Made by a program: the position numbers and the translations under genes
Assembly: GCA_037892935.1 (NCBI GenBank)
Contig: JAYXKI010000015.1
Span: 434,001 to 498,000, forward strand
Direction: 5' to 3'
DNA length: 64,000 nt
From: Phlebopus portentosus
Taxonomy: Eukaryota; Basidiomycota; Agaricomycetes; Boletales; Boletinellaceae
The notes under the pieces: generated by a model
The model's database searches: none
The model's input: the letters and a program-made list of their open reading frames with translations, nothing else
Told to the model about the DNA's origin: nothing
Part shown: one piece after another, positions 7,712 to 61,704 of the stretch
Numbering within the stretch: position 1 is the stretch's first letter
How the letters are laid out: each line of letters opens with the position of its first letter

Positions 7712-9979
7712 CTATTCCCGAGCCCTACCTTTCCCCTTCGACTGACGAACCCTCTCCACTTCCCCTCTATCTTCCTCTTCCTTGTCTTCACCTTCCCCCG
7801 TCTTCACCCCAGCCAACTCGAGCAGCAGACGATGATCTGCGTGCGCCTGTGCTACGAGGACGCTGAATTCGTTCAGCATCCGGGACAGGACCTTGTCCCG
7901 GTGATCCATCCACGCCAGCATGAACTGCAGCTCGGATTCCCTGACCTCCCGCTGCAGAGCTTCATGCTCGATGCGACCACCCACTGATCTGGCCGCCAGA
8001 GCTGTGACTTTCTGGCGTTTTGCTTCCCGATCGCGTGCCTCCCGAGCTGCCTTACGCTTCGCGGCTACAGCCCTGCCTTTCGTGGCTAGACTACAGCCCT
8101 TCGCCTGCTTCAAGCACGGAGCACAGGTCCTCTGCGGAAGACCCATGCAATCACGGCCACGCTTCTGGCACTGGTTGCACGGAACCCGATGATGAACGCG
8201 CCCATCGCTCAATCGTTCGTCGTCGTCGTCGTCATTATCGTTGTCGTCACCACCAGAACCACCACCATTAGCCGGAATCCTAGAAGGACCAGCCTCAGGT
8301 TGAGAAGACGCTCATCGTGCCGGAGAAACGCATCTCGCTTGCGTTTTGACAGTTTTGCGCGGAACAGCAGCAGTACCGCTATTGTTGTTGTTGCTGTTGT
8401 TGTTGTTGCTCGCGGTATTGAGAGCCTGAATCTCTTCAAGGCTTGCGTCCACCTCAAACGGCTCATTCGCCTCCATTCCCACATCACCGATATCCATTCC
8501 GCCGTCGCCTGGACTCATGACAACGGAGTCTTCTCCCCGATGACCAGGAGGAGGACTCTCAGGACTTTCCTGAATCGCAGGAGTCTCCTCGTCCGAGTCC
8601 ACCACTTGCCGAACACCACGAACGCGGCGAGTCCCTGCATCCAGTCGTCGTCGCATGTTGGCCTCGATTTCGGCAGCCATCCGGGAGATTTCGGCGCATT
8701 GAGCAGCGCGTTCTTCTTCTTCTCGTCTTTCACTCTCGCGAAGCTCAATCTCGAGCATTGTAGGTTCGAGTGAGGTTAAGGGTGTAGAACGGCTAGCCCC
8801 CTCCAAACGTTCTGCTCCGGTTTCGAGCGTTTCAACCGGTTCCGCGACCTCTCCGTCCTCAATCGTTTCGCCAGTTTTGACCTGAAGAGGAGCGGAATCA
8901 ACCTCCATTGGACTATCGACGTCCTGAGGCAGCATTTGATGTTGCTGCTGTTGTTGTTGTTGCGGAGGAAATGGTTCAGGCAGCATTGGTTGTTGCTGCT
9001 GTTGTTGTTGCGGTTGAGAGAAAGGTTCAGACAGCACTTGTTGGGATCGTTGTTGTTGCTGTTGTTGTTGTTGCGTTTCGGATTCCTGAGCACGAACGAG
9101 TTGATAGAGCCGACGACGAAGGATGGAATAGCCGTAGTATTCCCAGAGGAGCCGGACCGTTCTCAATTTCACCCTGTCAATGCGAAGGATGTGCCCTGCA
9201 CGAAGGTGTCGTTGCTCGATATCCTCCCAATATTCGAACGCTTGCTGTAGGAAGGATTAGATGGAGATGATAGACAAGAAGAAGTACCTACGTGACTCCG
9301 GACAGCTTCGTCTCGCGTGTAGTCCGTGTTGCCGGTGAACCTCGCCATTTGTTGGAACTTGGAGCTCTCCATTCTCACGTTCTTGAGAGCCTTTTCGATG
9401 TCAGGGCGCGGTTTCGGGAACATTGGAGGGAACGATTCGCCCAAGAAGAACCCACAAGTCGAATCGAACGAGGCAGGATGGAATGGAACCCTGCGTCTGC
9501 GGAAGAAAGCTCGTCGTTTGGTCTCCATCCTGGCGTAAAATTCCCGTCGATCGTAGTACAGCATCCGTAGGAGAGCGTCCGTGTCGCAGTAGTTGGAGTA
9601 CGCCATCTCCGACCAGACTTCTTTCGTTCCTTTGGGATGGACTTGCTCCAATGCTTCCTTCCATGCCTGTCGAATTTCGTTAACAAAAATTCTTGATTAG
9701 AGTGCGTGGTTTATGCACCGTGGTTGCCTTCCACCCATCCATCAAAGATTCCATCACCGGATTCGTCAACCACCGAACCGTCATCGAACCTGTAGGTGCG
9801 ATCCATTCGACCAGTTTTGTCTTATCCGGCAGAATTACCGTCGTGACGCCATGGTCTAGTTCATCCATTGCCGACCTGGCCAAGGTGACGTCTGCCTCAA
9901 ATTTTGCGACCGCTGCCTTCCAGTCGTCATCGGAGTTGATGGGTCCCAAGAGCGCGACGATTTCTTTGGAAGTGAACAT
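7712..9979 (-). CDS. Antisense accessory gene of element 1: coiled-coil protein with Zn2Cys6-type cluster (one internal TGA)
   Basis: Three exons read on the minus strand: 9979-9719, 9666-9292 and 9244-7712. Both introns (52 and 47 nt) are GT-AG and phase 0, giving about 722 codons. A TGA at 8314-8312 follows a CGA and interrupts exon 3. The N-terminal half has no family I recognise. Next come several poly-Gln runs (8930-9085), an acidic/Glu-Arg helical stretch, and Asn and Asp runs. Near 8175-8085 is a cysteine block spaced C-x2-C-x6-C-x7-C-x2-C-x6-C, the exact spacing of fungal Zn(II)2Cys6 DNA-binding clusters, followed by a basic, then coiled-coil, segment. In Gal4-type factors the cluster is usually N-terminal; here it is near the C terminus. 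A DNA-binding role is inferred from spacing only. Confidence 0.75.
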
Positions 9980-10107
9980 GTTGGAGAATGAAGAAGAGAT
10001 GACAGCGGAAGAAAATTTGGATGCGACGTGTTATGCTTCGAAACTCCCACGCATCGGATTGAGATGGGAGTGACCGCGGACGGTCACTATTTCATGAACC
10101 CGGGAGA
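9980..10107. other. Region between antisense gene start and 3' LTR
   Basis: This 128-bp stretch must contain the promoter of the antisense gene and the plus-strand priming site. A perfect 7-bp inverted repeat (GTGACCG...CGGTCAC) lies at 10070-10087. A short purine run (GGGAGA) just before 10108 is a weak polypurine tract. No clear TATA box is seen for the antisense direction. Confidence 0.4.
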
Positions 10108-11736
10108 TGAAGAGTAAGTCTGAAGCTTGGGAACGTACGGAGTCGTTACGACCAGTTCCGCGGTGTTCCGACTGGTTTCGCTCGGTTTCGACTGGTTTCG
10201 CTCGAACGAGTAGACTTAGCAAGAATGCCATAGTCCAGATGGCACGTGCACCGTTCTTTGATCGGCCATCAAGATGGGAGAATCACGGCATCGAGTTTGC
10301 ACGTGTCGATCACAAGTCTCCGGACCTCGGATCCGCATTCCAGACAAAGAGATTTGACCCTGCAACCTCGTCCTCAGTCCCTCTCCTTTGTTAAACATCG
10401 CAGACTTACTTTGTCAGGCTAGCCAGAGCCCTTCTGAGTCGTTTCCCCGAGTTCTGCTTCGTTCCGCTCAAAGAGACCCGGTTCTGAAGGTTTCGCACGT
10501 ATTCTGACCTTTCTATATGCGTCCCCTTTAATCCATTATGCTCTCATTCCAGACATGCTTAGTATTGTTCCTTTTGACCTATGTGTCCCTTAAACCATTC
10601 ATATGCGCTCCTCTCCTTTGTAGATAGCGATATGCGTTCCCTTTTCTTTATGATGTAGGTTCTCTGACCGCTGGGAGGCTCAGCCTTGGACGTTTAGTAT
10701 AAATATAGCACGACTCTCGTAGTAGAAGGACAGCTTAGTTGGAGCTGAGTGGGAGCTTAGCTTACAGTTCTCACATCGTCTCAAAGTCCCTCGACCTCTA
10801 GTCTACTTGTTCGTAGTGGACTCTCTCGTCTCTAAAAGTCTAATATACGATATTTCGTATTCTGTACAGTCGATCGGTGATCTCTCTTCGCAGCAGAGCC
10901 GTTCGTACGTTTGTATAGTTCGCTGTGATCGTACAAAGGCTCCTCTTACTTCTCTCACCCGAACCAAAACCTCCTTACGTGTTCCGAACCGTTTCGCCCG
11001 GTTTCGCTCGTAACCCAGTTACTCTGCGTGCCACTCGCATTCAGTCTCGCAACACCTTCCCCTCTCCAGTGTCATTGGGAAAGGACACCATATCACCCCT
11101 TTCCTCTTGACTTTCCACTCTCTGCTTCCTCAAGACCAGCCCGGTGCTATTCTGCATCGTTTCGATCGGAAACGGTTGGTTCCATCGTCCCACACATATC
11201 CTTCGATTCTCTCAGTCCCCTTCCGTCATCGTTTTGCACCTCCATCCCTCGCATCACATTTCGATACACTCAGCAATTGTCCTTCGTCCATCGTATCGCG
11301 TTTCGAATTGTTATGCCATGTTCCGACACTTTAGACTATGAGTGAGATTGGCTGCAGTCGCTTTCCAGTGGGTTAGCACAGTCGTTTAGTCATGTTCGGG
11401 TTGGTGGTTCGACTAGCGTAGCTTAGTTAGTTTAGTTCTTGTGCCTTGAGTCAGTCGGCTTTAGTCCAGAGCTCGCAGCTGAGCCGGAGAGTCGATTTAG
11501 CCTTCGCACCGCCACCATCGATCTCGGGAGAAGACTACCCTCGGAATTCTTCCTCGAGCGCTTCCCTCATATCCCCGGTTCTCACCAAGCCCTTCCATTG
11601 TATATCCCTATTTCCCTCCACTCCTTCGTGCCCTTAGCTCAGGTGTAATTCTCTGCTGACCGCTTGAAGGTATTCTAGGGCAGCCCCTCGAACTATACAC
11701 TCCCTGTCCGGCATCAGAACGTCCACAGGAGTTTCA
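10108..11736 (+). repeat. 3' LTR of element 1
   Basis: The 1629-bp LTR starts TGAAGAGTAAG and ends GGAGTTTCA, so it has TG..CA ends. It has the same length as the solo LTR at 56145-57773. Near its left end (10130-10210) is a dense cluster of GTTTCG and TTCCG words. The four bases after it are ACGG; the matching target-site copy lies outside the window. Confidence 0.95.
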
Positions 11737-14141
11737 ACGGCGAGACGGACAAAGATCCAGAGTGAAAAATTCGGCAATATCACAGTGGAGGAATATTTCC
11801 AGAAAAGTAAGTCATCCGTGGATCGAATAGGAATCGTGCTGACTATCGCACAGAGTTCCACATCACACTCCGCCACGCAGATGACCTGCCCATGGTGAAT
11901 GTCGGGAAAGAGGGCAAGGACATTTTCGTACCAGCCGAGCTGTGCAAGATTGTACCAGGGACCCTTTTCGCGGGTGAGCTGAAGTCTGGGGAGAGTGCAG
12001 CCCTGTGTGCTGCAAACAACAAGACGCCAGCCGGTCACGCACAGACAATCACTATCAAGGGTCTCCGTCTCCTAGGCTTCGAGGAGGGCACACCTCCGAT
12101 GGTCAGCTTCGGAATCAAAATCTCGACAAATATGGCTGTTGTTGCGGCTCGCGTTCTCCCCGCACCGTTGGTGATTTATCCTTCGGGCCGTGCACAAATT
12201 GTCAATGGATCTTGGACAGCGCGTGGCATTCAGTTTGCGAGGCTTGCAGAGCTTAAACGCCTTGCAGTTGTGGTCTTAAAGGATGGGAATATAGAAGAGT
12301 CCGACAGCTCGCTCGAGGTGCAGGTGCACGAGGCGGTGAAGGCTCTGATTGGAAAATGTCACGCACGTGGAATGAACGTCAACTCGGACTTCATCATGCA
12401 GGTCCTGCAGCTCCGCCATCCGAGTCGAGAGGATCCATACCATGATGAGGATGTGGACAAAGTATCAAGGTTGTTCGAATCGCTGCCAGGCAGGCCCCAA
12501 ATGGTTCTTGCCCTCATGTCAAACGAAAATAAGCACATCTATGCGGGACTCCACCAGTACTTTGACGTCAGCCAGGACTTCCAGTCTGTGATTGGCCTCA
12601 TCGAGAACATGCTCGACAAGGAGGGCCACGATCAGTATCTGCCGAATCTCGCGCTCAAGGTTAACACAAAGCTCGGTGGGGTCAACCATCGGCTGGAGCC
12701 TGCTTCTCTGAAACGGCTGGCAAACACGATGGTGGTCGGGTTCGATGTGATTAAGCCGGGTGGGAATGCGGTCAAGGGCGCGCCTGGTATCGCAGCGGTC
12801 GTGGTGTCGTGCGACGTGAACTTCAGAAAGTGCCATGCAAGTGTCTCCCTTCAGGGAGTAAAAGAAGAGGTGAGCTCTCATTTTTATACTATTATGCAGG
12901 CGCCTGATGCAGCTATTCATAGACAGTTGAAAACTTACGTGGTATGATTCTGGAATGCTTACAGAACTACCGTCAAAGCATGGGCTCGTTCCCTGAACGG
13001 ATCCTTATATTCCGTGCCAGTATTTCAGACGGCCAGCATGTGCGGGTAATGGCCACCGAGATCAAGCAGCTGAACGAAGCATTCGGTGAACTGAAGAAAT
13101 ACAAACTGAAGTTGACTTACATCACTTGTAGCAAAGGTCATCAGACTTGGTTCTACCCCAGCCGCAGACGATCCTAAGTTCGAAATGCCCCTATACAGTT
13201 TCTTGAGTTGCTGTACGAAAACACTGGAACTTGCATATTCCCGAGGCTGCCCGTCAAACAAGTGTCGATGATGTTGACGACCGTCAGTGGTGGTCACTAG
13301 TTTGGCAAACATTTGCATGGCAGCCCCATTGACTCTGAGCTTCGAAGTCTTCGTGATCGGACTGTGGCAGCCTGGACTTCACTGCGGAAACGGGATATAA
13401 GCTGGAAGGCTAGGTCGCTGGCGATATGTGGTGGAGGTCTGTCATTTCGTTCGTGCTGGTCATGGATGAGGCTGAGACAACGGTATACACGCATCTCCAA
13501 TTCGTTAGGTGATTCAGCCTTTCCTCTTTGATCGTTACAGAACTCCTTTAGAGACAGCAGAGCTTTTGCAGGCGTAAAGATCCAGACAACAACTTGACGG
13601 CAAGGTTGAGGACTCACAGTTCATAAGCTGCTGGATCTCCAAAGCTCGATCAAACGTAGGTACGTCGTACATGAGATAGAGTGAAAGGATATGAAAACGT
13701 GTACATCGTTCGTGAGACTCGATAGCTATTGGTCCGTTGTCTTGCTGAATTGTGAAACCGTTGCGTACAGCTCGAGAGCAATCTCTGGCAAATGCCCGAG
13801 TCTCCGTGAAGTCACTGAAGTTCATCAGACGCATCCTGCACATCACGACGACTGACAAGACCTCGTGCTCTATGGTGGGAACGAGCATAGACCAGGGCAT
13901 GATGAGCATTTACGACTACAATTTCTCTTTGCAGGCTCATGCAGGCATGCAAGGTATCGCTCGTGCAGTTCACTACACCGTCCTCCATAATGACAAGAAG
14001 TTATCTCCCAACACTCTACAGCAAGGCATCAATGAAATCTCATACCTGTGGTCAGCATCAACGAAGGGTGTGAGCCTGAAACTGCCAGCCTACTGGCAAG
14101 TCAAGCATGTGCAAGGTGATGTCACCGGTCGAGGGCAGTAA
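11737..14141 (+). pseudogene. Argonaute gene remnant (PAZ, L2, MID, PIWI), interrupted by element 1
   Basis: Argonaute proteins bind small RNAs and silence targets, including transposons. The first visible exon (to 11806) holds ITVEEYF of PAZ; a 47-nt intron (11807-11853) follows, then the end of PAZ (LPMVNVGK, PAELCKIVPG). MID and PIWI run to about 12930 and include KLGGVNHR and GFDV with the first catalytic Asp. A 1-nt frameshift lies near 12932. In the next block the expected RDG is RAS, so the second catalytic Asp is lost. After an insertion of antisense SAC3 sequence, the C terminus resumes near 13850 with GTSID and ARAVHY (third Asp and His kept). The N-terminal part is missing because the retroelement sits at 11736. 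Non-functional. Confidence 0.93.
13190..13830 (-). pseudogene. SAC3/GANP-family gene fragment, antisense inside the Argonaute remnant
   Basis: On the minus strand two frames resemble the SAC3/GANP domain of the mRNA-export (TREX-2) factor Sac3. From about 13816 I read TRAFARDCSRAV, FTIQQDNGPIAIESHER and RFHILSL. After an intron-like gap (near 13608-13563) come SLKEFCNDQRGK, SPNELEMRVYR and HDQHERND. The frame then slips, and a last recognisable bit (MQMFAKLV) lies near 13300. An intron is retained, so this is a DNA copy, not a retrocopy. It replaces the part of PIWI between the 'FYPSR' block and the GTSID block. Confidence 0.75.
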
Positions 14142-14790
14142 GGAGGTGAGGATGGGGAAGGAGGGATGTGACTTGTGTGAGTTGCGAGTTGCAAAGTCAA
14201 CTTTGTCATGTGCAACAAAAGGGTAAGACCGAAAAAAAAAGACAAGATTGATGCTCCCCATGTTCACAAGTCCTAATGATAACAAACAAATCTTGATAAA
14301 ATTGAACCTAAATTTATATCATTATAGCACTTTCTAAAGCTGCCTGATGTAAACAAAGCAAGCTCAGAAGGTCAGCATAACCAGAAAGTACTGTACTATA
14401 TTTAAGGTGTTATTTAACTCTATCATGTGATTGTGGGAAAGTCTTCAAAACTCGAATGTGTACGCATCTGTTGCTCTTACTCTTAGGAGGTGTGTATTTG
14501 GGTAGGTCATGTAACCCATGACTACAACTAGCTTTGTACATCATCTACACGAGATCCGTATTAAATTGCAAATGTATAACCAGCACTGGTTTAGCACGGA
14601 CCATCTAGATGAAATAGGTTGTACATACATATAGATATGCATACATGACCTACATCTCTATGTGTAGGCCTGCATATATTTACTCTCTGCTTTGTTAATA
14701 GGCTCTGCTGCCTCAACAGTTAGAAATTTTGTTTTCTGCTTTCAGACCAATTTATAATTATATTTGATTAGAAATTATCAAAATACATGC
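14142..14790. other. Non-coding AT-rich stretch
   Basis: About 650 bp with no credible frame, repeat or promoter. It lies between the Argonaute C terminus and the Hsp70-derived mosaic. Confidence 0.5.
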
Positions 14791-14794
14791 AAGC

Positions 14795-15035
14795 TTAGCA
14801 GATGGTGGCACCATACACAACAGTCTCATCTGGGTTGATAGACTTGCATGGCTCCTTGCTGTTGAAGAAGTCAGGCATGAACTTGACAATTCGGGGTATA
14901 CAGGTGGAACCATTGATGAGGATGATCTTGTGTACATTGGAATTGTCTATCTTGGAGTCCCGGATAATCTTCTCAACAGGCTCAAGCGTAGAATGGAAGA
15001 GATCCTGGCACAGCTCCTTGAATCATTGTCGGCAT
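14795..15035 (-). pseudogene. Hsp70 ATPase-domain fragment (second copy, end of mosaic)
   Basis: Reading minus, [15 protein letters not shown] leads into [18 protein letters not shown] and then [13 protein letters not shown]. This is the end of the Hsp70 nucleotide-binding domain. In a normal Hsp70 it comes before the substrate-binding domain, but here it comes after it. The fusion point is near 15025, directly after a TYADN motif. It is a degenerate second version of the segment at 15875-16100. Confidence 0.88.
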
Positions 15036-15201: not shown

Positions 15202-15499
15202 TAATCTTGTTCGCTTGGAGCAAAATGATCTGCCTGGCGACCCACACTATTTGACTGAGTTTGGCCCCAGTCTCCTCGCTCTGGGGAATGCCACACAGAG
15301 ATCAGAGACAATAACACAAAGCGAAAGCGATACGACATACTACATGTTTATTCATCACTATAGAAGCCGGCATTGTACAGAGGAGTGACAGAAAGATTGA
15401 GACAAAAGCCTGCATAAAATTGGTCAGAGTTCAGATATGAATATATAGGTTGGGTATGCACTCAAATAGGGCACTAGTCAGACCTGGAGACACACCATA

Positions 15500-30390: not shown

Positions 30391-31300
30391 ATGAACAACT
30401 TCAATCTCCTTGATGGGCAGTATGGAGCACAGGTGCGTTTTCAAGTCTGATAGTATGCATTTCAAAGAAACTTATGATTCTGTATCCATGTTTTTGCCTA
30501 CTTGAATTGATATTCCGCTCAGGTGAACAATTTGCTTCTGTTGCAGCAGGCAGCTCTTTTCGTGGAGGCCGGAGGTCAGGCTGTCGAGGTCGAAGGTCAG
30601 GTTGTGGAGGCCGAAGGTCAGGCTGTTGAAGCCGAAGATCAGGCTGTGGAGGCCGAAGGTCAGGCTGTCGAAGCCGAAGGTCAGGCTGTCGAGGCCGGAG
30701 GTCAGGCTGTCGAAGCCGAAGGTCAGGCTGTCAAGGCCGGAGGTCAGGCTGTCGAAGCCGAAGGTCAGGCTGTCAAGGCCGGAGGTCAGGCTGTCGAAGC
30801 CGAAGGTCAGGCTGTCAAGGCCGGAGGTCAGGCTGTTGAAGCTGAAGGTCAGGCTGTCGAAGCCGAAGGTCAGGCTGTCGAAGCCGAAGGTCAGGCTGTC
30901 GAAGCCGAAGGTCAGGCTGTCGAAGCTCAAGTGCCACAACCAGCTCCAGCCGAATTCCATTGCATCTACTGCAACGAAGTTTTCGGCAGGGCATATACTC
31001 TCAGAATGCATATGAACATTCAGTAAGTCTCCATTCTTTCCAACATAAATTTCTAACTTCTTTCCAGCAAAAATAAATATACTTGTGAGCATTGCGGCTG
31101 AAACTTTACCAGAGCACACTCGCTTGTCAATCATCAATTCGTCCAGTAAGTATATTTTTCACTCTAATACCAAATCGCACTCATAGCTTTTCAGCACGAA
31201 TCAAAAGCTATACACCTGCACACATCCTGGTTGTGGCAGGACGTATCAGCACGACAGCTCGAGGCGTGGACACGAACGAGATGTGCACGGTGGGAATTAA
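30391..31300 (+). CDS. C2H2 zinc-finger gene Z2 with heptad-repeat linker (one TGA)
   Basis: Four exons: 30391-30432, 30523-31022, 31068-31145 and 31195-31300. The introns are GT-AG and all phases agree. Exon 2 carries 17 copies of a 7-residue GQAVEAE-type repeat and finger 1 (FHCIYCNEVFGRAYTLRMH). Exon 3 carries finger 2 (YTCEHCG...FTRAHSLVNHQ). Exon 4 carries finger 3 (YTCTHPGCGRTYQHDSSRRGH) and ends at TAA 31300. A TGA at 31099-31101 interrupts finger 2 after HCG, where Arg or Lys is usual. Either this is a one-base inactivation, or the protein stops there. The family suggests nucleic-acid binding; the repeat would form an acidic, extended or coiled linker. Confidence 0.7.
30574..30930 (+). 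repeat. 21-bp minisatellite, 17 units, coding heptads
   Basis: Seventeen in-frame copies of a 21-bp unit close to GGTCAGGCTGTCGAAGCCGA lie inside exon 2 of Z2. Variants alternate (E to K and E to G at fixed positions) in higher-order pairs in the middle of the array. This points to unequal exchange of two-unit blocks. Confidence 0.92.
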
Positions 31301-49404: not shown

Positions 49405-51243
49405 TGTAGTGCGCTGCACTAACCTGTACCGGTCCAGCGGCACAGGCCTGTAAGGGCTGTACTCCCCTATGCCATACCCAGGACACCCCGCGTACTATTG
49501 TCAGCAAACCAGCCTTCGCCGCCGTTACCCTTAATACAGCCTGGTCAGCGGCCGCCGGACCTTCGGCGGCCTAGGAACAGCACCTACACCGCCACCGCCG
49601 CCGATCATACGAACCGGCAGCGACGCCTCCACTCCTATCTTATGATCACCTTGTTCCCCCTTCGACCAAACCCTAGTTCCCCTTCTCCGGCCTCTCTCAA
49701 GAACGGTTCCGCCAAATCCGGCAACTCCGGGCTTCGGAAACGCTCACACAGCGGCTGGACACGCTGCGGTGGATGTATATCGCGCCATCGCGGAGGTGTA
49801 TGCCCGCCGCCGCGCCAGCCGGGTGAACGATAGCCAATCTCAGGTCCACTTCTTTGATTGTTTCATATTCTTATCATCCCACATTGTACGCCGAGCGCGG
49901 TAGCGCGCCCGGCGGCCGTCCGTATATTCCCCCTTTTAGTTTTATTCGACCCCTTGGTGTTTCAGATCCATATAGAGCGCACCCTGACCGATCCAAACGG
50001 CCCCGACGTTCGACACGACGTACCAGCACTCCACCGTTCCGATTGGGGCGCCCCTAGGTCTTGGTGGCTTGGCGGCGCATCTCAGCGGCGGCCCCCGCCA
50101 TTGCGGCGCGCCTGTCACGCCTCGCCGCCTGCCGCTTTTAGTGATATTTCTTATCAAGGACTCATAGTATATATAGAGAGCATGTATCTATCCTAAAAAG
50201 CAGCAGATATACACTCTAGAACGCAGCTACCAGAGACCAGCCACAAGCAAAGAAGCCTCCTTCAAGAAACCAGTATATACAGAGAACCAGACAGCCGGAT
50301 CGGGCGAACTCCCAGTCACGTGCCCTCGCCGATCCCGTCCTGACGGCGTGGCCCCCGATCTCACAGGATAGAAGCCGCTGAGTTCATTCGCCGCCCTGGT
50401 CATCTCCCTCCTGCACAGCTGTCACTCGTCTAGTAATTGCTCCGGGGACTTCCCACTCATATCTGCATCGCCGTCCCTCTCTCTCTAGCCTCCGCCGCCG
50501 CTCGGTCCTGAACATTTGTGATTCTTCCTCAACGCCTCGATGCAGCCGTCACTCCTCTAGTAATCAATCCCGCGGTCTTCGATTTCTCCCTGCACCTGAC
50601 GCCCCTTTTGTGTTTCGTCGCCGCTGCTCGGTTCAGATCGTTTGTGATTCTTCCTCAATGCCTCGACGCAGCCGTCACTCTTCTAGGCATCTGTTATACT
50701 TCCTCGACGCCTCGACACAGCTGTCACTCTTCTTGTGTTCGCCGCTACCGTCGGCGCCGGCGCCCCTTTTCGACTGAATCCAGTCTCCCACTTCTTGCCG
50801 CCTCCGCCGCCTCCGCATCGTTCCACCGCCGACACTACTCCCCTTTCAAGTGGTGTCGACTCTCTCTCTCCCGCATCTTCTCTGTGTCGTTCCGACGTCA
50901 TCTCCCCGACTACCAGGCGGAATTGCACTGGTGCGAACCTCCGCCAGCGCCGCACCCAGTCCGCCGCTGCGACCCCTTCGCCGGTTCAGTCGGACTCGGC
51001 GATCCCTATACAGCCGTCGAGGCCCGGATCGCCGCAGCGAGTTATTCGAAGGCGCGGCGGATCTGCCTAACGGCCAGATCCTTGTGCATCTGAGCTGAGT
51101 GTCGCTTCTGAAAGCCTGTAGGTAGTCTGTAGATCTGGTAGGACCTCCCCTTTTTCCTCTCGACACCTTTGACATCGCCTCCCTGTGGTTGAACGCCGCC
51201 GCCGCCGCCTTTGTCCCTATCTAGGAGAGTCTGATAGTCTACA
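49405..51243 (+). repeat. 5' LTR of element 2 (1839 bp)
   Basis: The start TGTAGTGCG is fixed by the repeat at 63919 (82 bp visible there, nearly identical). The end at 51243 (..GTCTACA) is set by the PBS three bases later and by the analogous arrangement in element 1. A TATATATA box lies at 50168-50175. The downstream half has C/T-rich 'GCCGTCACTCYTCTAG' direct repeats near 50540, 50670 and 50720. Confidence 0.8.
50168..50175 (+). promoter_or_regulatory. LTR TATA box of element 2
   Basis: TATATATA in an otherwise GC-rich LTR, about 760 bp from its left end, is the likely U3 promoter. Confidence 0.5.
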
Positions 51244-51264: not shown

Positions 51265-51943
51265 AGGTAAAAAGGTGTCGTTCTAACTGATCTCAGGCCC
51301 TTCCAAGGGCACGCGATACTCACTAAGGCTGCAAAGAAGGGCGGAAAACAGTCAAACAGCCTCAGCCACAACCGCCGGCCAACCATACCATTATTCTACA
51401 CTCTTTACAAGAGGCCGAACAGAAGAACCCCGTCCCACCGCACCCAGATCTCTGTCCGCGCCGAACCACCGATGCGCGTCCATCGCCGCAGATGACCCAC
51501 CCACCTGGTGTCCCAGAAGAGCATCTATCACTCCTTTTACACGCAACCCACCACCTGGCAAAAGCGCAAGCACCGCCGCCGCACGCTCTATATCGCCTAT
51601 AATTCCCCCTCGCTTCATCCACGTTCCTAAAGACCTCTGCGAATCCGAAATTCGCCCCAGTACTCACGTTCGTGTCCCCGGCGGCATCGAGGACCTGTCA
51701 ATATCCCTCCAGGAACCTCCAGCCACCGGTCCCATCGAAACAGACCTCTTCTCCGACATAGACAACCCCCCAGATATCCACCGCCGCACCGGCCTACAGT
51801 TATACTCCGCCGAAGAAGAACAGGAGGACGACGACCTTTACGTCCCCGACTCCCTTGTACATGGCCACGCAATCACCCCCGACTCTCCACTAACCCCCGT
51901 CGAAGAAGAGCGATCGGCAAGGCTCTCCCCACTCCCCCCTCTT

Positions 51944-54502
51944 ATGCCGCCGACCCCAGCTCAGAGGCCGCGGCTCTCCCCAATTGACAACACCCAACCT
52001 CCCACCCCCAGTACACCTCCTAAGATGGCCTCTATACCAACAATGACCAGCACCCATACCGGCATTCCCGCTGCGCCCCCCGCAGCCTCAGGACCGACCC
52101 CGCTGCCCCCCCAACAGCCGTCCCCCGCCGCACCAGCCTATGCCGCACCAGCACCACCCCCCGCGGGCGCCTTTCCCCCTCTTCCAGACCTCAGTGACCC
52201 AGATACCCATCCATTAAGCGGTCCCAACCCATCAGTGCCAGGAGCTACAATGCCCTACCTGGGAGACCGCCGCGTGCCGAAGTTCAACGCCTCCGGCGAC
52301 CCCACGGAAATCCCCATCTTCTTTAACAGAGTCCGGCTATTTGGACAAAGCGCCGGCCTAACAGATGCGCAAATGATCGCTTGGGCAAGATGCTACGCCG
52401 ACGCTAAAGACGATCAGCTATGGTGCAAAAGGCCCGAAACGAGAGGAAACGACTTTATGGCATTCAAAGACGCTATCCTAAAGTACTACCCAAACGCTAC
52501 GACCCAGTACACACTCGGCGACCTCCACAACCTTATTAACATAAGCCGCAACCAAATTATGCTGAACACCGCCGCCCTCGGCGAATACCATAGGAACTTT
52601 ATCACCGTCTCCTCGTATCTTATCAACGCCGGCATGCTATCAGAGTTCGAACAGAAGCGTATGTTCAGAGAAGGCCTCCACCCGACGCTAAACAGAGAGC
52701 TGGATCTTAATTTGCGGTTTGTCAAGCACGACCACCCTACCGGCGTGCCCTGGGACATTGACACAGTTGTAAGAGAACTAGAACGCATCCTAACCGGCGG
52801 CCGCCTCACAACCGCCGACCAACCACTGATGTATGCGGCGACAGCGGCCATGCCCACCTATACACAAGTTACGACGTACACGCCACCGCCGCAACCCGGT
52901 GCTCCGGCCTACGGAGTCATCAACCAACCCCAGGTCAAGCAAGAAGAACCGTGGGTGTCCCTCCTAATCCAGGAAATGCGCGCCCTCCGTGAAGCCACCG
53001 AGAAGTCAAACTGCCGCGCTCCGCCGCCAACCGCAGGAGCCCCGCCGCAGCCCCGACAAGCCAGATTTAACGGAAAATGCACCGTATGCACCAGTGTAAC
53101 GCACTCTACCCGCAACTGTCCCACCAAGATCTCCCTGATCCAGAGGGGAATCATGCTCGCCGACGCCAAAGGGTACCTGTACCCCTCCAATGGCCGACTT
53201 CCTCAGGGAGAACCGGGGATGTCGGTACTGGACAGGATTAATAAGCTCTTCATAGAGAATCCAAACTACGCACCAGTTGGCGTCCAGCTCCCCATTCAGC
53301 CCATATCTGACACGCCGCCAAGGATCGCTCCGCTGAGGCAGGATCCTACATATCAGGGACAACCACCGACTCAACAATCCATGTATCAGTCACACCCTCC
53401 ATCACAGGAATCTATGTACCAGGGCCTCAACCGGGCACCGCCTCCCTTAGCCTACAATACAAATCCGCTGAACGGCCTGCTGCCGCGAATCCAGGAATCG
53501 AACTACTTCGAGGCTATCACCCCAGAAGACCCCCCAGACGACGATGCCTGCGACGGAGTCGTGCTCCTTTTTGAACAAGAAGAATCCACCGAACAACCGC
53601 AGAATGCCTTTGCCGCTGCCGGAAGACGGCCAGGCCCCAGAGAAGTTTTCGACGGAATCGAAATCCCCACCAGAAAGCCGCCTCGAGACCCCAACCCGAA
53701 ATGGGGAGATAACAGCAAGAAAGGGAAACCACCCGGACAATGCCCGGCCCCGCCGCCGATGCCCTCGGCACCGCACAGGGACGACGCGGCAGATCCGAAG
53801 CCACAATACCGAACCACCGTACCAGCATACGATGACGCCGCGGTATCAAACGTTTTCGACAAGATTCTGGACTCGGAAGTCACCCTGCCGATCCGAAGCC
53901 TGCTCGCCGCCTCTCCCGAAATTAGAAAGAAGTGTAAAGAATTTGTCACGGGGCGCCGAGAACTAATTAGGGAAAATCCTGATCACGAGATGGCAATGTA
54001 CGCCTCAATCCTGAGGCCCACCTCGCCGGTCAACTTCGGCGACGAAGATCCATCCGTCGCCCCGCCGAACATCCCCCTTCGCGAAATCGAGGTCTGGCTC
54101 GATGATAAATTCGAAGTAAAGGCTTTGCTCGACTCGGGGTCGACGTTTATCGCCGTGCCAAAAGAGGTATGGAAGGACCTCAGCTCCCCGACGATAATGA
54201 GCCAAGCAATCACAGTAGAAACCGCCGACAGACAAACCTCACACTCGGCGGGACTCATCCCTCGCGTCAGACTCACCATAGGCGCCTTCTCTATTGTTGT
54301 CCAAGTCCAGGTCGTCGAAAAGGCCCCCTTTCAGTTACTATTAGGCCAGCCGTTTTTCGTACACACTAGGGCGCAGGTCATAGACGAGGCCGACGGCGAA
54401 CAGACGCTATACCTTACTCATCCCGATACGAACGAAACCATGTCGATCCCGACGATTCAGCGCGGCGCCGGGACAGAAAAACAGCGCCCCCCTGGACAAT
54501 GA
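51944..54502 (+). CDS. gag: gag-pro of element 2 (intact)
   Basis: One open frame of 852 codons. A Pro-rich N terminus is followed by the Gag capsid part (RRVPKFNASGDPTEIPIFF from about residue 110, and LGEYHRNFITVSSYLIN). The CCHC knuckle (CTVCTSVTHSTRNC) lies near 53085-53125, with a Pro/Gln-rich linker after it. The retropepsin domain has an intact LLDSGS near 54123-54140 and LLGQPFF near 54340. The frame is open upstream to about 51285 without an ATG, with plausible protein composition, so a non-AUG or spliced start is possible. The stop overlaps the pol ATG (ATGA). Element 1 has the same ORF broken by TGA. Confidence 0.9.
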   Translation: MPPTPAQRPRLSPIDNTQPPTPSTPPKMASIPTMTSTHTGIPAAPPAASGPTPLPPQQPSPAAPAYAAPAPPPAGAFPPLPDLSDPDTHPLSGPNPSVPGATMPYLGDRRVPKFNASGDPTEIPIFFNRVRLFGQSAGLTDAQMIAWARCYADAKDDQLWCKRPETRGNDFMAFKDAILKYYPNATTQYTLGDLHNLINISRNQIMLNTAALGEYHRNFITVSSYLINAGMLSEFEQKRMFREGLHPTLNRELDLNLRFVKHDHPTGVPWDIDTVVRELERILTGGRLTTADQPLMYAATAAMPTYTQVTTYTPPPQPGAPAYGVINQPQVKQEEPWVSLLIQEMRALREATEKSNCRAPPPTAGAPPQPRQARFNGKCTVCTSVTHSTRNCPTKISLIQRGIMLADAKGYLYPSNGRLPQGEPGMSVLDRINKLFIENPNYAPVGVQLPIQPISDTPPRIAPLRQDPTYQGQPPTQQSMYQSHPPSQESMYQGLNRAPPPLAYNTNPLNGLLPRIQESNYFEAITPEDPPDDDACDGVVLLFEQEESTEQPQNAFAAAGRRPGPREVFDGIEIPTRKPPRDPNPKWGDNSKKGKPPGQCPAPPPMPSAPHRDDAADPKPQYRTTVPAYDDAAVSNVFDKILDSEVTLPIRSLLAASPEIRKKCKEFVTGRRELIRENPDHEMAMYASILRPTSPVNFGDEDPSVAPPNIPLREIEVWLDDKFEVKALLDSGSTFIAVPKEVWKDLSSPTIMSQAITVETADRQTSHSAGLIPRVRLTIGAFSIVVQVQVVEKAPFQLLLGQPFFVHTRAQVIDEADGEQTLYLTHPDTNETMSIPTIQRGAGTEKQRPPGQ
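54486..54502 (+). promoter_or_regulatory. gag-pol overlap with possible -1 slip site (C CCC CCT)
   Basis: Near the end of gag-pro the codons CGC CCC CCT give a C CCC CCT heptamer, and the -1 frame is open from there into pol. The stop TGA and an ATG in the pol frame overlap as ATGA (54499-54502), so termination-reinitiation is an alternative. Element 1 also needs a -1 shift. Confidence 0.5.
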
Positions 54503-57500
54503 CGTCCCAGCGGCGTCCGCCGGAACATATGCGGCGTATACCCCCAACCATACCCGACGCATATGTGCTCCATCACGGCCCGGCGACTGTAAATATCGCC
54601 TTCAGTCCCCGCACCATAGATATCTCCACCTCATTTTCTGATCGATCCGCCGAAAAGGGTTTCACAGCCCAGAACAAAGCCCAAAAACATCCAGCCTTCT
54701 TCATTAACTCTATTTTCGACGATGAATCACTCCCCGTACGCAACCGAATACCCCGCTCCAACAGCACTCTTAATACCAAGGCCGCTCAACCGGCCGGGCA
54801 CGCCTACAAGTACAAAAAGGTCGCCCAATGAACCAAACCTATATCGGCAACCCTTCCAGAGGACTACCACATCATACGCAAATCACACCCGCAGCCGCTC
54901 ACAGATCTACCGAAGCTCCCTATCGATCCGCCGGAGTTCATTCCAGGACGCCACTTTACACAAGAACGCTTCGACGCCCTAGACATCGACCCAACTGGTT
55001 TCCTCAGTGAGGAAGAAAAGAACCTCGCCTACTGGACCCTTCTACAACATGAAGACGGCCTAGCTTGGGATGAAACAGAAAAGGGCTCCCTCGACTATCA
55101 ATACTTCGCGCCGGTTCTAATTCCTACTGTCGACCATACGCCGTGGGTAATGAAAAACATCCCTATTCCGCCGGGGATCTTCAACGAAGTGGTTCGCATA
55201 ATCAAAGACAAAATTAACTCCGGCGTCTACGAGCCGTCCAATTCCTCTTACCGCTCCCGATGGTTCTGCGTTGTTAAAAAAGATGGAAAATCCCTTCGGC
55301 TTGTACACGATCTCCAGCCACTCAACAAAGTCTCCATACGCGACCCCTCTGTCCCTTACCCCACAGAACACATCGCCGAGACCTTCGGCGGCCATGCCTG
55401 CTACACCACACTCGATCTATTCGTCGCCTTCGACCAGAGAAAGCTCGACGTACGATCCCACGACCTCACAACATTCCAAACACCTCTCGGCGCGTTTCGC
55501 CTCACCTCGATTCCTATGGGATACACCAACTCGCAACAAATTATGCACGCCGACGTCACGTTCGTCCTCAAAGATGAGATACCCCATGTCTGTATCCCAT
55601 ACATCGACGATATTCCTGTAAAAGGCCCTAAATCCTGATACGAGCTCGCCGCCGGAAAATACGAAAGCATTCCGGGGAACCCGAACATCCGCCGCTTCAT
55701 CTGGGAACACCTCAACGACGTCAACCGCGTCCTCCAACGCCTTAAAGTAGTCGGCGTCACTGTCTTGGGTAAGAAACTCATCATCGCCGCACCAGAAGCA
55801 GTCATTGTAGGACACACCTGTAATTACGCCGGCCGAGTCCCAGACGCATCCAGGGTCAAGGCGATAATGGATTGGCCGCCGCCGCGGGATGTCCACAATG
55901 TTCGGGCATTCTTAGGTACGGCCGGCGTCCTTAGACACTTCATGAAGAACTACGCCAGACTATCCGCCGGTCTCAACAAACTACTCTGCAAAGACCAGCC
56001 CTTCCTATTCGACGAAGACGCCCGCCGATCTATGGATCTACTAAAACATGCCATAGCATCCTCCGGCGCCATTCGTTCTATTGACTATAAGTCAGGACAA
56101 CCTGTTCATTTCTGTGTAGACTCCTCCGTTCATGGCTACGGCGCTGAAGAGTAAGTCTGAAGCTTGGGAACGTACGGAGTCGTTACGACCAGTTCCGTGG
56201 TGTTCCGACTGGTTTCGCTCGGTTTCGACTGGTTTCGCTCGAACGAGTGAACTTAGCAAGAACGCCATAGTCCAGATGGCACGTGCACCGTTCTTTGATC
56301 GGCCATCAAGACGGGAGAATCACGGCATCGAGTTTGCACGCGTCGATCACAAGTCTCCGGACCTCGGATCCGCATTCCAGACAAAGAGATTTGACCCTGC
56401 AACCTCGTCCTCAGTCCCTCTCCTTTGTTAAACATCGCAGACTTACTTTGTCAGGCTAGCCAGAGCCCTTCCGAGTCGTTTCCCCGAAGTTCCGCTTCGT
56501 TCCGCTCAAAGAGACCCGGTTCCGAAGGTTCCGCACATTTTCTGACCTTTCTATATGCGTCCCCTTTAATCCATTATGCTCTCGTTCCAGACATGCTTAG
56601 TATTGTTTCTTTTGACCTATGTGTCCCTTAAACCATTCCTATGCGCTCCTCTCCTTTGTAGATAGCGATATGCGTTCCCTTTTCCTTATGACGTAGGTTC
56701 TCTGACCGCTGGGAGGCTCAGTCTTGGACGTTTAGTATAAATATAGCACGACTCTCGTAGTAGAGGGACAGCTTAGTCGGAGCTGAGTGGGAGCTTAGCT
56801 TACAGTTCTCACATCGTCTCAAAGTCCCTCGACCTCTAGTCTACTTGTTCGTAGTGGACTCTCTCGTCTCTATAGTCTAATATACGACATTTCGTGTTCT
56901 GTACAGTCGATCGGTGATCTCTCTTCGTAGTAGAGCCGTTCGTGCGTTCGTATAGTTCGCCGTCATCGTATAAAGGCTTCTCTATCTCCTCTCACCCGAA
57001 ACAAGACCCCCTCACGTGTTTCGATCCGTTTCGCCCGGTTTCGCTCGTAACCCAGTTACTCTGCGTGCCGCTCGCATTTGGTCTCGCAACACCTTCTCCT
57101 CTCCATTGTCGTCGGGAAAGGACACCATATCATCCCTTTCCTCTTGACTTTCCACTCTCCGCTTCCTCAAGACCAGCCCGGTGCTATTCCGCATCGTTTC
57201 GATCGGAAACGGTCAGTTTTATCGTCCCACACGTATCCTTCGATTCTCTCAGTCCCCTTCCGTCATCGTTTCGCACTTCTATCCCTCGCATCACATTTCG
57301 ACACACTCAGCAATTGTCCTTCGTCCATCTTATCGCGTTTCGAATCGTTACGCCGCGTTCCGACACTTTAGACTACGAGTGAGATCGGCTGCAGTCGCTT
57401 ACCAGTGTGTTAGCACAGTCGATTAGTCACGTTCGGGTTGGTGGTTCGACTAGCGTAGCTTAGTTAGTTTAGTTCTTGTGCCTTGGGTTAGTCGGCTTTA

Positions 57501-59617
57501 GTCCAGAGCTCGCAGTTGAGCCGGAGAGTCGATTTAGCCTTTGCACCGCCACCGTCGATCTCGGGAGAAGCCTACCCTCGGAATTCCTCCTCGAGCGCTT
57601 CCCTCATATCCCCGGTTCTCACCAAGCCCTTCCATTGTATATCCCTATTTCCCTCCATTCCTTCGTGCCCTTAGCTCGGGTGAAATTCTCTGCTGACCGT
57701 TTGAAGGTATTCTAGGGCAGCCCCTCGAACTATACACTCCCTGTCCGGCATCAGAACGTCCACAGGAGTTTCAGCGCCATCTTGTTACAGCTCGGCAAAA
57801 ACGGCGAAAGGGTCCCATCTCGTTTCATGTCCGGAACCTGGAACAACAGAGAACGAAACTACTCCCAGGCGAAGCTAGAACTCTTCGGCCTCTTCAGAGC
57901 TCTATATGAGGCGCGCATATACCTCGTCGGCATCGATCACTTTTTCGTCGAAGTCGATGCCAGCTATATTAAAGGCATGATTAACAACCCAGACCTCCAA
58001 CCCAATGCCACTATCAATAGATGGATCGCCGGCATCTTACTTTTCAATTTCACGATCATTCATATGCCGGCGCCCAAACACCTTGGCCCAGACGGCCTAT
58101 CACGCCGCGGCGCCGCACAAACCGATCCGCCGCGAGACGAAGGCTTCAAAGAATGGATTGACCATCAATACTCCTTCCTAAACCAAGACCTTTCCGACAC
58201 AGTCTATACCCCAAACAGCGAACCCGTACAACTCCCCAATCACAAAGCCTCCCAAAAAGGATTCAAAGACCTCGATTCTATCAAGAAATTTCTCGCCGCC
58301 CCATCCCGCCCCGCCGATCTTTCAGATGCCCAATTCAAACAGTTCGTACGCCGAGCCACTCGTTTCTTCCTACAGCACGGTGAACTCTACAGAAAGAACG
58401 ACAAAGGTCACGCCGCACTCGTTATTCCGCCGGAACACCGGATTTCCATTATCAGAACTGCCCACGACGAACTCGGCCACAAAGGCTTCTTCTCTGTCAG
58501 AACAACGATCCAAGACTGATTCTGGTGGCCAGGAATGCATCAGGACATCAAATGGTATATCAGAACCTGCCACCAATGCCAAACGAGGCAGTTTACGAAA
58601 ATATATACTACGCCGCAAAGCCCGACGCCTGCGCCGCTATTCACCAGGGTGCATATAGACGTGATGTTAATGCCGCCCTCCGGCGGATTCAAGTATATCG
58701 TTCAGGCCCGAGACTCGCTCACCGGATACCCCGAATTCCGAACGCTGCGCAAAGATAACGCCGCCTCGACAGCACGCTTCGTTTTTGAAGATATTTTGTC
58801 AAGATGGGGATGAGTCGAGGAGATCGTAACCGACAACGGCACCTCATTCTCCAAGGACCTACCCTGCCTTCTCGCCAAATACAATGTCCGGCACATCCGA
58901 ATCTTGCCGTACAACTCAAGAGCCAACGGAATCATTGAGCAGCGACACCGGGACCTTAGAGAAACCCTAATGAAGCTCGCCGATGCAAGCCCAGACAAGT
59001 GGTCCCAGCATATATACCACGCCATTTGGGCTGAACGAATCACGATCCAACGCCGCACAGGCTATAGCCCATACTTTATGGCCCACGGCGTCGAACCAGT
59101 ACTCCCCTTCGACCTCGCCGAACAGACGTACATCTCGCCGGCGGTCACCTCCAAGATGTCTGACGCACAACTCATCGCGGCGAGAGCAAGGGCACTCCAG
59201 AAACGACCCGAGGACCTCCAACGAGTCAAGGAATCCGTCATCCAGGGACGCTTCAAATCCATACAGGACTTCGAGAAAACCCACGCCGCAACAATTAAGG
59301 ATTACAATTTTGCCCCCGGCTCACTTGTGCTGGTCCGGAACTCCCAGATCAAAAATGAGCTGAACAGGAAGACAAAACCGAAGTACCTAGGGCCCATGAT
59401 TGTTGTGTGGCGAACCAAAGGAGGATCCTACGTTCTCGCCGAAGCAAACGGCGCCATTTCAGCACTTCGTTACGCAGCATTCAGAGTTATCCCCTACCAC
59501 GCACGCACTCGAATCATCAACTCAGTCGAAGACCTCACTCAGAAATCCACGCCGGAACTCGACAACCTAGCACAAGAGACTGCAGCGGATGACCTAGATG
59601 CCGAATCCAACTTATGA
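54499..59617 (+). pseudogene. pol: pol of element 2, split by a solo LTR and four TGA codons
   Basis: The N-terminal part has stops at 54829-54831 and 55636-55638. The RT has DLFVAFDQ and an intact YIDD near 55600; RNase H begins at CVDSSVHGYGA. The solo LTR (56145-57773) splits RNase H. It resumes at 57778 with the KLELFGL and EVDASYIKG blocks and DGLSRR. Integrase: HDELGHKG zinc site with TGA at 58517-58519, CHQCQ, HIDV, TGA at 58811-58813, TDNG, NGIIEQRH, then LGPMIVVWR near 59388; stop at 59617. At three of the four stops element 1 has Arg or Lys in the aligned place (GPKSR-YEL, ERFWW, AQKVRP). Catalytic residues are otherwise kept. Confidence 0.93.
56145..57773 (+). mobile_element. Solo LTR of the element 1 family, nested in element 2 pol
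   Basis: The 1629-bp copy runs TGAAGAG...GTTTCA, identical in length to the 3' LTR of element 1. It is flanked by GCGC at 56141-56144 and 57774-57777. Removing the LTR and one GCGC restores the RNase H reading frame (..GYGA then ILLQ..), which proves the 4-bp target duplication. It arose by LTR-LTR recombination after insertion. Element 1's family is therefore younger here than element 2. Confidence 0.97.
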
Positions 59618-60056
59618 AGATCCGCCGAAGCCTCATAATCACCCTCTCCCTTATATACACATTCCCCAAGTCACCTATTCGGACCCGCCGCTATCTTCAC
59701 ACTCTCCAATCATCACTCAAATGACTGCGGCGAGACGCCGAGTCACCCCCTTCCACATTTTCACCTTACTCAAGTCATTCTTTCAGCCCCGGCGCTATTT
59801 TTAGGGCGCCTATCCTCCCTATTTCATTCCAGCCCATCTCAATCTTACATTCCCTGATCTCACAAAGAACCATCCTCACAAGAAAAACATTCGGCTTGTT
59901 ATTACAAGCCACTATAGTACACAAGAAAAAGAAAAATACAATATTTTTGTACTTTTATATTTTTCCTATTTTTTTTAATTTTTTTTTCGGCCCAAGGGCA
60001 CTTCATGGTCGCCGAAGACCGCGAGCCGACGCCGTTTGCGTCGTTTGGCTTGCCGC
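59618..60056. other. Convergent spacer between pol and the antisense gene of element 2
   Basis: A 439-bp non-coding spacer, nearly the same length as in element 1 (446 bp). It contains A-rich then T-rich runs (59921-59990) that could serve as 3'-end signals for both converging transcripts. Confidence 0.55.
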
Positions 60057-61704
60057 CTATCCACAGCGTTCACCCTGGGCCTTTTCCTCCACCCCCCCAC
60101 CCGCACTCTCTCCCGCCAACGTCGACTCCATCCCCTCCAGCTGCCGGCGGAGAGCGAGGACCTCCTGCTGTGCCAGGAAGGTCACGTCCGACTCCAAGAT
60201 ATCGCACCGGTGGTGTGATACCCGGCACGCCTGGCACAGGAGCGCCGGCGGGCGCCTCATGCACATCTCCCCACGCCCGATGCACCGCTCGCACCCCGGC
60301 GACACGAACTCGAGGAGGCGGCGGCTCTGACCCCTGGGGAGCCGCCCGACCCTCTCGAACTCCCAACCCCCCTCCTCCCTCTGAATATTATAGTCAGAGA
60401 GTGTCAAGAACAAAATTCAAGACAGCACTCACCGCCCCGTCCCTTCTTTCTGTCGCCTCCTCTTTCACCCTTCCCCCACCCGAGGCTGCCACTCCCGGCG
60501 CTCTTGCTCGTTTCGCCGGCGGCTCGACCACCGGCTCACATACGTGCTTCGGAAGGGGAGGCACCTAGAAATGAAACATGTCAGTGAAGAATAAGATCCA
60601 GGATATAAAACACACATCGACATATACCTCCTTTCCACTCGACCTTTTCGCTCGCGTTGACCCCTCATCAGACTCAACCTCAAGAGTAATGGTCTTTCCC
60701 GTGACCGTCCCCGAGCGTCCCTCTCGCGTCACTCGACCACTCTCCCCCTTGAGCGTCTCGCTGGACGAACCCGCCACCTCAAGACCAGGGATCGACGACC
60801 CAGGAAGAGTAATCGTCTTTCCCGTCGCCGGCCTGGCCACGGGACGCGCCTGCACCTTCGCTTTGGTGCTCGTTTTAGGCGCCGCGACCTAAGAAGATAT
60901 TATCAGAGACAGTAAAAAACAAAATTCAAGACAACGACTTACCAGGTTCCCCGCCTCATCACGCCCTGAGGACCTACAGAAGGCCTCGACGACCTCCGGG
61001 CCCCCAACTCGCAGGGTGGTGAGCGTCTTGAGGAAGGAGGCTTTCGCCTCCTCGGCCACCTTCGCCGCGCTCCGCTTCGCCTCCTCACGAGCCTCCTCCT
61101 CCCGGCGCTTGGCCAGCCTCTCCGCGACGCGTCGGAGGCAATTCACCTCCGACTGGGCGGCCTTGTCCAACGCCTCGGCGGCGTCTTTAGCCTCCCCGGC
61201 GGCCATCCGCACCACCGTCGCCCGGTTCACCAACCACCTTCCCGCGCAATAATATTCGGGCTTTTCAGCCCTCGCGTCGTTGGATAGCGTGGGGAAGCGC
61301 TCTCCAAGCCCCTTCTGAAAAAGTAAACCAGATCGTCAGCTCACACGGTTATTATCAAGGGAATGCAAATTTACCAAGAGCCCATCGAGCTCATCAGCAG
61401 CGGGCCCCTCATCGTTTCGGGCCCGCTCGATCCACCCCCTCACCGCTGTAATGGCCGCCCACACGACCGCGTCCAGTTCTTCCCCCCCCTCCCCCCCCTC
61501 CCCACCCTCCTCCTCCGTCTCCCCCTGCGACTCCGGCGGGACCTCTTGCCCGCTGGGGGCCCGCGACATCCCGCCCGCGGCAGGAGCCCCCGTCGCCGCC
61601 CCGGCGTCCACCTCCATCTGGTCGGAGGGAGCCTCCGACCCCTCCCTGCTGTTGTTGCTGCTGCTGTCGCTGCTGCTGCTGACGCTGAGAATCGTCGGCG
61701 CCAT
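60057..61704 (-). CDS. Antisense accessory gene of element 2: five-exon coiled-coil/Zn2Cys6-type protein (intact)
   Basis: Minus-strand exons are 61704-61375, 61314-60943, 60888-60628, 60564-60433 and 60380-60057. All four introns are GT-AG (50-63 nt) and all phase 0, giving an open frame of 472 codons plus stop. Exon 1 is Ser/acidic with a Glu/Gly run. Exon 2 is a long Ala/Glu/Arg helix, likely coiled coil. Exons 3 and 4 are basic and Thr/Ser-rich. Exon 5 holds a cysteine block spaced C-x2-C-x6-C-x8-C-x2-C-x6-C (starting CERCIGRGEMC), which fits the fungal Zn2Cys6 cluster, then a short coiled coil (LAQQEVLALRRQLEGME). It shares position, strand, phase-0 introns and the C-terminal cluster with the gene at 7712-9979, but little other sequence. 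Function unknown. Confidence 0.8.

Follow-up and report, generated by a model that had tools for sequence, protein, structure and literature searches.

Introduction

Accessory genes encoded antisense in long terminal repeat (LTR) retrotransposons have long been noticed without a function, according to the available passages of two papers (PMC7264820, PMC11963269). Such genes are already known from the Ty3/gypsy elements of plants and the Boty elements of fungi. In plants, the same passages describe the aORF-3R genes of Retand (TRP28), Grande (gene23) and RIRE2; plant aORFs are found between pol and the 3′ LTR in most copies, with DNA binding suspected and the function unknown (PMC7264820, PMC11963269). 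In fungi, brtn is described as an antisense gene in the Boty-like Ty3/gypsy element of Botrytis cinerea (PMC7264820, PMC8365987, crediting Zhao et al., 2011). The antisense regulator gene HBZ of HTLV-1 is reported, in the passages available, to be expressed from the 3′ LTR side (PMC7264820, PMC11963269). Another relevant system is VANC of the Arabidopsis VANDAL elements, an anti-silencing protein whose element is dense in a short word specific to its family, as the parts consulted describe it (PMC5735166, PMC10398659). Here we describe spliced antisense genes in Ty3/gypsy elements of the basidiomycete Phlebopus portentosus. They were found in a stretch of 64,000 nucleotides (the window, C15:434001-498000) of a 38.4 Mb genome assembled in 23 contigs. 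The window holds one element of each of two families, E1 and E2; a third family, E3, was found elsewhere in the genome. The antisense proteins of all three probably end in a Zn2Cys6-like module, and each family is enriched in a short DNA word, CGNAAC in E1 and E3 and CGGCG in E2.

Antisense Genes, Their Copies and Relatives

The antisense gene of E1 lies on the minus strand between pol and the 3′ LTR, with exons at 9979-9719, 9666-9292 and 9244-7712 separated by introns of 52 and 47 nt. The E2 gene, intact in the window copy, has five minus-strand exons (61704-61375, 61314-60943, 60888-60628, 60564-60433 and 60380-60057) and introns of 60, 54, 63 and 52 nt. All introns are phase 0 and bounded by GT..AG, and the gene models thus bear out the first-pass annotation, made from the sequence of the window, which had placed a spliced minus-strand gene with phase-0 introns between pol and the 3′ LTR of both elements. 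The E1 window copy carries one in-frame stop in exon 3, upstream of the cysteine block described below, so that the gene first described is broken there, though intact copies exist. Transcription of the gene probably begins on the 3′ LTR side.

Copies of the gene were examined at 30 E1 and 30 E2 loci, the top scorers among 94 and 34 matches listed, respectively. It has stayed open in 14 of the 30 E1 copies and in 6 of the 30 E2 copies, fractions that are biased upward because the loci were chosen as best-scoring. Splice sites were intact in 28/30 E1 copies (one site altered, one copy incomplete) and 26/30 E2 copies (four incomplete), and the lengths of all three exons were multiples of three in every E1 copy (30/30). 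Frame slips, as read in the assembly, affected 17/30 E2 copies, 11 of them in exon 1. Of 638 E1 pol candidates, 50 were scored and listed; 49 of these places had the antisense gene opposite to and downstream of pol, and none of the 50 had it on the same strand as pol.

Matches to the antisense proteins came from the annotated proteins of four Sanghuangporus species (S. sanghuang, S. weigelae, S. baumii and S. vaninii), which by themselves would place the host in Sanghuangporus or close kin (Hymenochaetales). Relatives of the E1 protein were 78% (S. weigelae) and 63% (S. baumii) identical. The independently annotated S. weigelae protein P0002 reads through both E1 splice junctions as modelled, and P0001 of S. 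sanghuang is annotated with a first exon differing from the E1 model. The E2 protein has a relative in S. weigelae with 46% identity over 94% of the query and all six cysteines present. The proposal of a conserved antisense accessory gene is supported by the 49 of 50 listed E1 pol places, the intact copies and the Sanghuangporus relatives. A chance origin of the frame and block was considered and rejected on the gene models, the copies, the S. weigelae and S. baumii relatives and shuffles of the cysteine spacing.

The gene is also present in another element. The E1 antisense protein matched two E3 places (C6:1482690 and C1:2062123) at 33% identity, where E3 pol lies on the strand opposite to the antisense gene and is 70–73% identical to E1 pol. 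The E3 protein has near its C-terminus the cysteine block followed by an ATxGRA stretch, both common to E1. Over 134 aligned codons of the E1 and E3 C-termini, codon positions 1, 2 and 3 were 51, 51 and 35% identical, the lower value at third positions being as expected for coding sequence. E1 and E2 had been taken for unrelated elements, which is wrong: they have a common domain order and RT-integrase (reverse transcriptase to integrase) pieces 45–68% identical, the protease pieces are 31% identical, and a similar stretch follows the 5′ LTR. On sequence comparison E1 and E2 are related families, and pol identity over the three gene-bearing families spans 45–73%.

Coding constraint was assessed by comparing nonsynonymous changes with an expectation that preserves mutation spectrum and CpG context. 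Of the 180 changes among the 14 intact E1 copies, 95 were nonsynonymous vs. 122.2 expected (z -4.6, ratio 0.53), compared to 48 of 170 vs. 115.8 expected for E1 pol in 8 copies (z -11.5, ratio 0.18). Constraint on the E1 antisense gene is therefore real but looser than on pol. No selection on the E2 antisense protein was demonstrable within the genome from 6 intact copies; as far as sequence goes, support for the E2 gene comes from its S. weigelae relative rather than from within-genome selection.

Exon 3 of the E2 gene (60888-60628, minus strand) encodes the peptide TGKTITLEVE, letter-identical to a stretch of ubiquitin. The stretch is partly kept in the S. weigelae and S. vaninii relatives, which show TLTGKTITL and TLTGKAVIL, and the E2 protein matched polyubiquitins with E-values down to 2.3e-8. 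Chance, capture and mimicry are candidate origins.

The Six-Cysteine Block

Zn(II)2Cys6 clusters follow the spacing CX2CX6CX5-12CX2CX6-8C. The E1 protein contains a C-x2-C-x6-C-x7-C-x2-C-x6-C block at residues 570-598 of 724 (8179-8093, minus strand), and the E2 protein a C-x2-C-x6-C-x8-C-x2-C-x6-C block at residues 395-424 of 472 (60293-60204, minus strand), confirming the C-terminal block reported for both genes in the first-pass annotation. In E3 the block occupies residues 445-474 of 577. The Zn(II)2Cys6 spacing was present in 7/7 proteins (E1, E2, E3 and relatives) and arose in 0/100,000 shuffles of each, and is thus no product of composition. It is also conserved among copies, with cysteines in 29/29 E1 copies at five positions and in 28/29 at the sixth, and in 26/26 E2 copies at all six.

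The E1 and E3 blocks are homologous. The E2 block is suggestively similar to these, a profile comparison over 32 columns giving an E-value of 0.0017 and a probability of 16%. Among the 30 residues after the block, 12 are lysine or arginine in E1 and 2 in E2. AlphaFold models placed a long helix after the block in both E1 (pLDDT 70) and E2 (56.6 for the whole model and about 90 for the helix), in agreement with the coiled coil suggested there earlier, though the E2 model is poor overall. In the genome-wide search for Zn2Cys6 domains, 42 of the 60 rows listed exceeded the cut-off, and none of the 60 fell at the listed match places of the E1 and E2 antisense genes. The spacing and helices agree with the earlier assignment to a Zn2Cys6 cluster, while Pfam and the solved folds do not bear out a plain Gal4-type assignment. 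The E1, E2 and E3 antisense proteins probably end in a Zn2Cys6-like module, with putative zinc and DNA binding.

Family-Specific Words and Their Phasing

The word CGNAAC occurred 79 times in the part of E1 within the window, vs. 38 times in 36 kb of the host part of the window used as a control and 26.7 expected from order-1 shuffles. CGGCG occurred 188 times in E2 without its solo LTR (11–24 per kb in each part) vs. 30 times in the same 36 kb. The enrichment extends into coding sequence, as tested by synonymous-codon shuffles (300 or 500) holding protein and codon usage fixed. The E1 RT-integrase region had 21 CGNAAC vs. a shuffle mean of 9.0 and a maximum of 17 (500 shuffles), and the E3 coding pieces had 30 vs. 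14.9, exceeding all 500 shuffles. In E2, CGGCG exceeded all 300 shuffles in 4/4 coding pieces: gag-PR (gag and protease; 41 vs. a mean of 18.7), RT (9 vs. 2.2), RNaseH (12 vs. 4.2) and integrase (11 vs. 3.5).

This specificity is reciprocal, each family being without enrichment of the other word: CGGCG was not enriched in the E1 RT-integrase region (2 vs. 6.5) or in E3 (16 vs. 12.5, with 77/500 shuffles reaching 16), nor was CGNAAC in E2 gag-PR (8 vs. 6.8). When words were ranked blindly, the top 6-mer of E1 gag-pol was CGAAAC (z 6.2) and the top 5-mer of E2 gag-pol was CGGCG (z 9.2), compared to z 2.8 (5-mers) and z 3.4 (6-mers) for the best words in the control of six host open reading frames (ORFs; putative genes). 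Words and proteins are paired in that E1 and E3 have homologous proteins and CGNAAC, and E2 a different protein and CGGCG. A dense short word, specific to the element and differing between families as described for VANC, is thus found here. In the element copies, C-to-T type changes at CpGs outside the words were about 3–6 times as frequent as at other C and G; CpG transitions at word CpGs vs. other CpGs gave mixed results.

In E1 and E3, CGNAAC is phased at 10-bp steps, close to one turn of the DNA helix. The E1 3′ LTR contains six such sites at 10145..10200 (minus strand), 166–221 bp upstream of the antisense start codon, and three at 10981..11006 (minus strand); the six phased sites are kept in the E1-family solo LTR of the window (56182-56237). 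Same-strand CGNAAC pairs in E1 (1332-11739) numbered 9, 6, 3 and 3 at distances of 10, 20, 30 and 40 bp, vs. a maximum of 2 pairs at each other distance up to 60 bp. E3 has four phased sites (L076:559-594) about 1 kb upstream of its antisense start codon. Genome-wide, there were 719 phased CGNAAC triples vs. 4 for the reversed and 1 for the GC-swapped control pattern. The first 100 triple places, on contigs C1 and C2, formed 25 clusters, of which 15 lay within 12 kb of an E1-internal or E3 match; five of the other 10 had the full spacing signature of the E1 LTR, one had it in part and four were without assignment. No single spacing stood out for CGGCG in E2.

Phased CGNAAC arrays also occur at C1:3945730 and C1:3955876, about 10.1 kb apart, with no E1-internal match listed nearby; they may mark the LTR pair of a further family using the same word.

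Organization of the Elements

The window copy of E1 extends from 299 bases upstream of the window to 11736, with LTRs of 1629 bp. Its 5′ LTR starts at C15:433702, the outer start being taken from L073, and the part in the window (1..1330, plus strand) is 98.0% identical across 1331 bases to 10407-11737; the 3′ LTR is at 10108..11736 (plus strand). The gag-pol ORFs (1273..7265, plus strand) encode DUF4100, aspartyl protease, RT, RNaseH and integrase zinc domains. Comparison of the two flanks of this copy found no matching target duplication.

E2 extends from 49405 to C15:499757, with LTRs of 1839 bp and CCGG at both outer sides. Its 5′ LTR (49405..51243, plus strand) is 97.0% identical to the 3′ LTR, which starts at 63919 (plus strand) and continues past the window end at 64000 to C15:499757. 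The gag-pol ORFs (51287..59617, plus strand) are split in the window copy by an E1-family solo LTR within pol (56145..57773, plus strand). In both E1 and E2, Pfam domains follow the order DUF4100 and aspartyl protease, then RT and RNaseH. The RT scores were slightly below the Pfam cut-off, and the last pol piece of E2 had no Pfam match but was 50% identical to the integrase part of E1.

The insertion site of the solo LTR is CGGCGC, and GCGC borders the LTR on each side. The solo LTR and E2, with its CCGG flanks, thus both have 4-bp duplications of CpG-containing sites, and the window E1 is without matching flanks. A further sense ORF of E2 lies between the antisense gene and the 3′ LTR (62609..63790, plus strand; first Met at 62846) and had no stop in 12/17 genome match rows spanning all 394 residues, with no match in Pfam. 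It is oriented head-to-head with the antisense gene and ends in MIDLTTED, which resembles a SUMO-interacting motif. In the host part of the window, a 21-bp tandem array (30478-30989; 17 overlapping register copies) lies inside a minus-strand ORF (30472-31158).

Discussion

Direct observations comprise the antisense gene and its persistence among copies, the cysteine block, the enrichment of each family in its own word and the 10-bp phasing in E1 and E3; from them we infer zinc binding, DNA binding, the pairing of protein with word and the sign of its effect. In the mechanism that we propose, this Ty3/gypsy lineage would make an antisense protein from the spliced gene between pol and the 3′ LTR, and the protein would return to the DNA of its own element through the family word (CGNAAC in E1 and E3, CGGCG in E2). 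The recognised words would be those arrayed in the LTRs and scattered through the body, including pol, and the protein on filled sites would drive LTR transcription and hold silencing off the element. We consider the chances about evenly balanced that the Zn2Cys6-like protein binds the words of its own family, drives transcription from the LTR and prevents silencing. The excess of C-to-T changes at CpGs is consistent with CpG methylation, and activation with anti-silencing is therefore favoured. The family-specific word arrays likewise lend support to the DNA-binding regulator of the element suggested by the first-pass annotation, although the link between protein and word is correlational. 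A more specific form of the proposal, in which the protein reads its private word across the whole element (synonymous pol positions included), averts silencing by CpG methylation and co-diverges with the word, is put forward more tentatively.

Several results weigh against this reading. The PF00172 cut-off of 21 bits was missed, with the last E2 exon reaching 12.7 bits and no match for the scanned E1, E3 and relative proteins, and the E1 model matched no solved fold in the PDB. Among the relatives, the E2 relative P0009 of S. vaninii is without the block as annotated and P0006 is out of frame at it. Constraint was not evident for E2 when its 6 intact copies were compared (61 of 102 changes nonsynonymous vs. 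66.2 expected; z -1.1, ratio 0.80) and was weak over all usable copies (ratios of 0.76 for 29 E1 and 0.78 for 26 E2). As for the words, AACTC/GAGTT was the top 5-mer in E1 gag-pol (25 vs. 10.8, z 5.1), with CGAAA second; the blind ranking did not single out CGNAAC in E3; and the E2 triple pattern exceeded its reversed control only about twofold (693 vs. 328). Covariation of protein and word amounts to three families and two words, all gene-bearing.

Part of this evidence also suits other explanations. The antisense protein may be an accessory factor acting elsewhere, in RNA or gag binding, export or assembly, while a host factor binds the words and drives the LTR. Zn2Cys6 matches are plentiful in the genome itself (the 42 listed rows above the cut-off) and the block falls under that cut-off, but a host factor alone leaves unexplained both the words inside pol coding sequence and the joint difference of word and antisense protein between families, and we regard this explanation as unlikely. 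The protein might instead bind its own arrays to repress the element, either keeping its copy number down or shutting off the sense promoter. Retroelements are known to limit themselves, and the largest E1 array, so close to the antisense start codon (166–221 bp), is also present in the LTR serving as 5′ LTR; words across the body and pol, however, exceed the needs of a promoter operator, and repression appears rather improbable.

Two further explanations seem to us highly improbable, the latter slightly the more so. In one, the antisense transcript rather than the protein acts, by pairing with genomic RNA and feeding small-RNA silencing or regulation. Roles of this kind are considered for the antisense transcripts of other elements in the available passages of one paper (PMC7264820), and the undemonstrable selection on the E2 protein would fit; a long spliced frame, a block kept in copies and species and the constraint on E1 (z -4.6) would not. 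In the other, a host transcription-factor gene was captured once and is now decaying, the words being a compositional quirk of the elements. Selection on the E2 gene is indeed weak and that on the E1 gene modest, and stops or frame slips mark many copies (17/30 slipped in E2, 11 in exon 1), but decay hardly accounts for a gene found in three families with pols 45–73% identical and at 49 of the 50 listed E1 pol places, or for the excess of words over shuffles with protein and codon usage fixed and the 10-bp phasing.

If binding of each protein to its own words were confirmed, these elements would represent a self-recognition system of fungal retrotransposons, with selection on DNA words inside retroelement coding sequence. 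A private word accumulated in pol and phased near one helical turn in the E1 and E3 LTRs, together with a family distribution matching that of the antisense protein, gives a direct and cheap question, namely whether each protein binds its own word. Judged by titles and the openings of abstracts, searches of an open-licence PMC library turned up no antisense zinc-cluster gene in any basidiomycete element and no C-terminal zinc-cluster protein combined with saturation by a private word.

Among known systems, the plant aORF-3R genes resemble E1 in their position between pol and the 3′ LTR and their retention in most copies (49 of the 50 listed for E1), and Retand has family-specific tandem repeats where the elements described here have family words. 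Unlike aORF-3R, the genes found here are spliced with phase-0 introns and encode a C-terminal six-cysteine block instead of TRP28, and the words extend into pol coding sequence, with 10-bp phasing in E1 and E3. The brtn element, compared by description only, is likewise a fungal Ty3/gypsy element with an extra antisense gene but belongs to an ascomycete. HBZ, a bZIP protein of a retrovirus, is similar in that its antisense gene is expressed from the 3′ LTR side, and no homology is implied. The antisense proteins described here share with PF00172 the six-cysteine spacing and the helices after the cluster, and the E2 word CGGCG contains CGG, the usual half-site of Zn(II)2Cys6 proteins. They differ in the position of the block, which is C-terminal here and usually N-terminal in Zn(II)2Cys6 proteins, in matches that are below the cut-off or absent, in having no PDB fold match and in the few basic residues after the E2 block (2/30).

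The likeness to VANC is one of description, and membership is not claimed. VANDAL elements are plant DNA transposons whose words are mainly non-coding, and for VANC both binding and loss of methylation have been measured. The two systems nevertheless share an element-encoded protein and a dense word of the own family, in same-orientation arrays and differing between families. If our proposal is true, the antisense proteins and their words would form a retrotransposon parallel of the plant VANDAL/VANC system, of independent origin.

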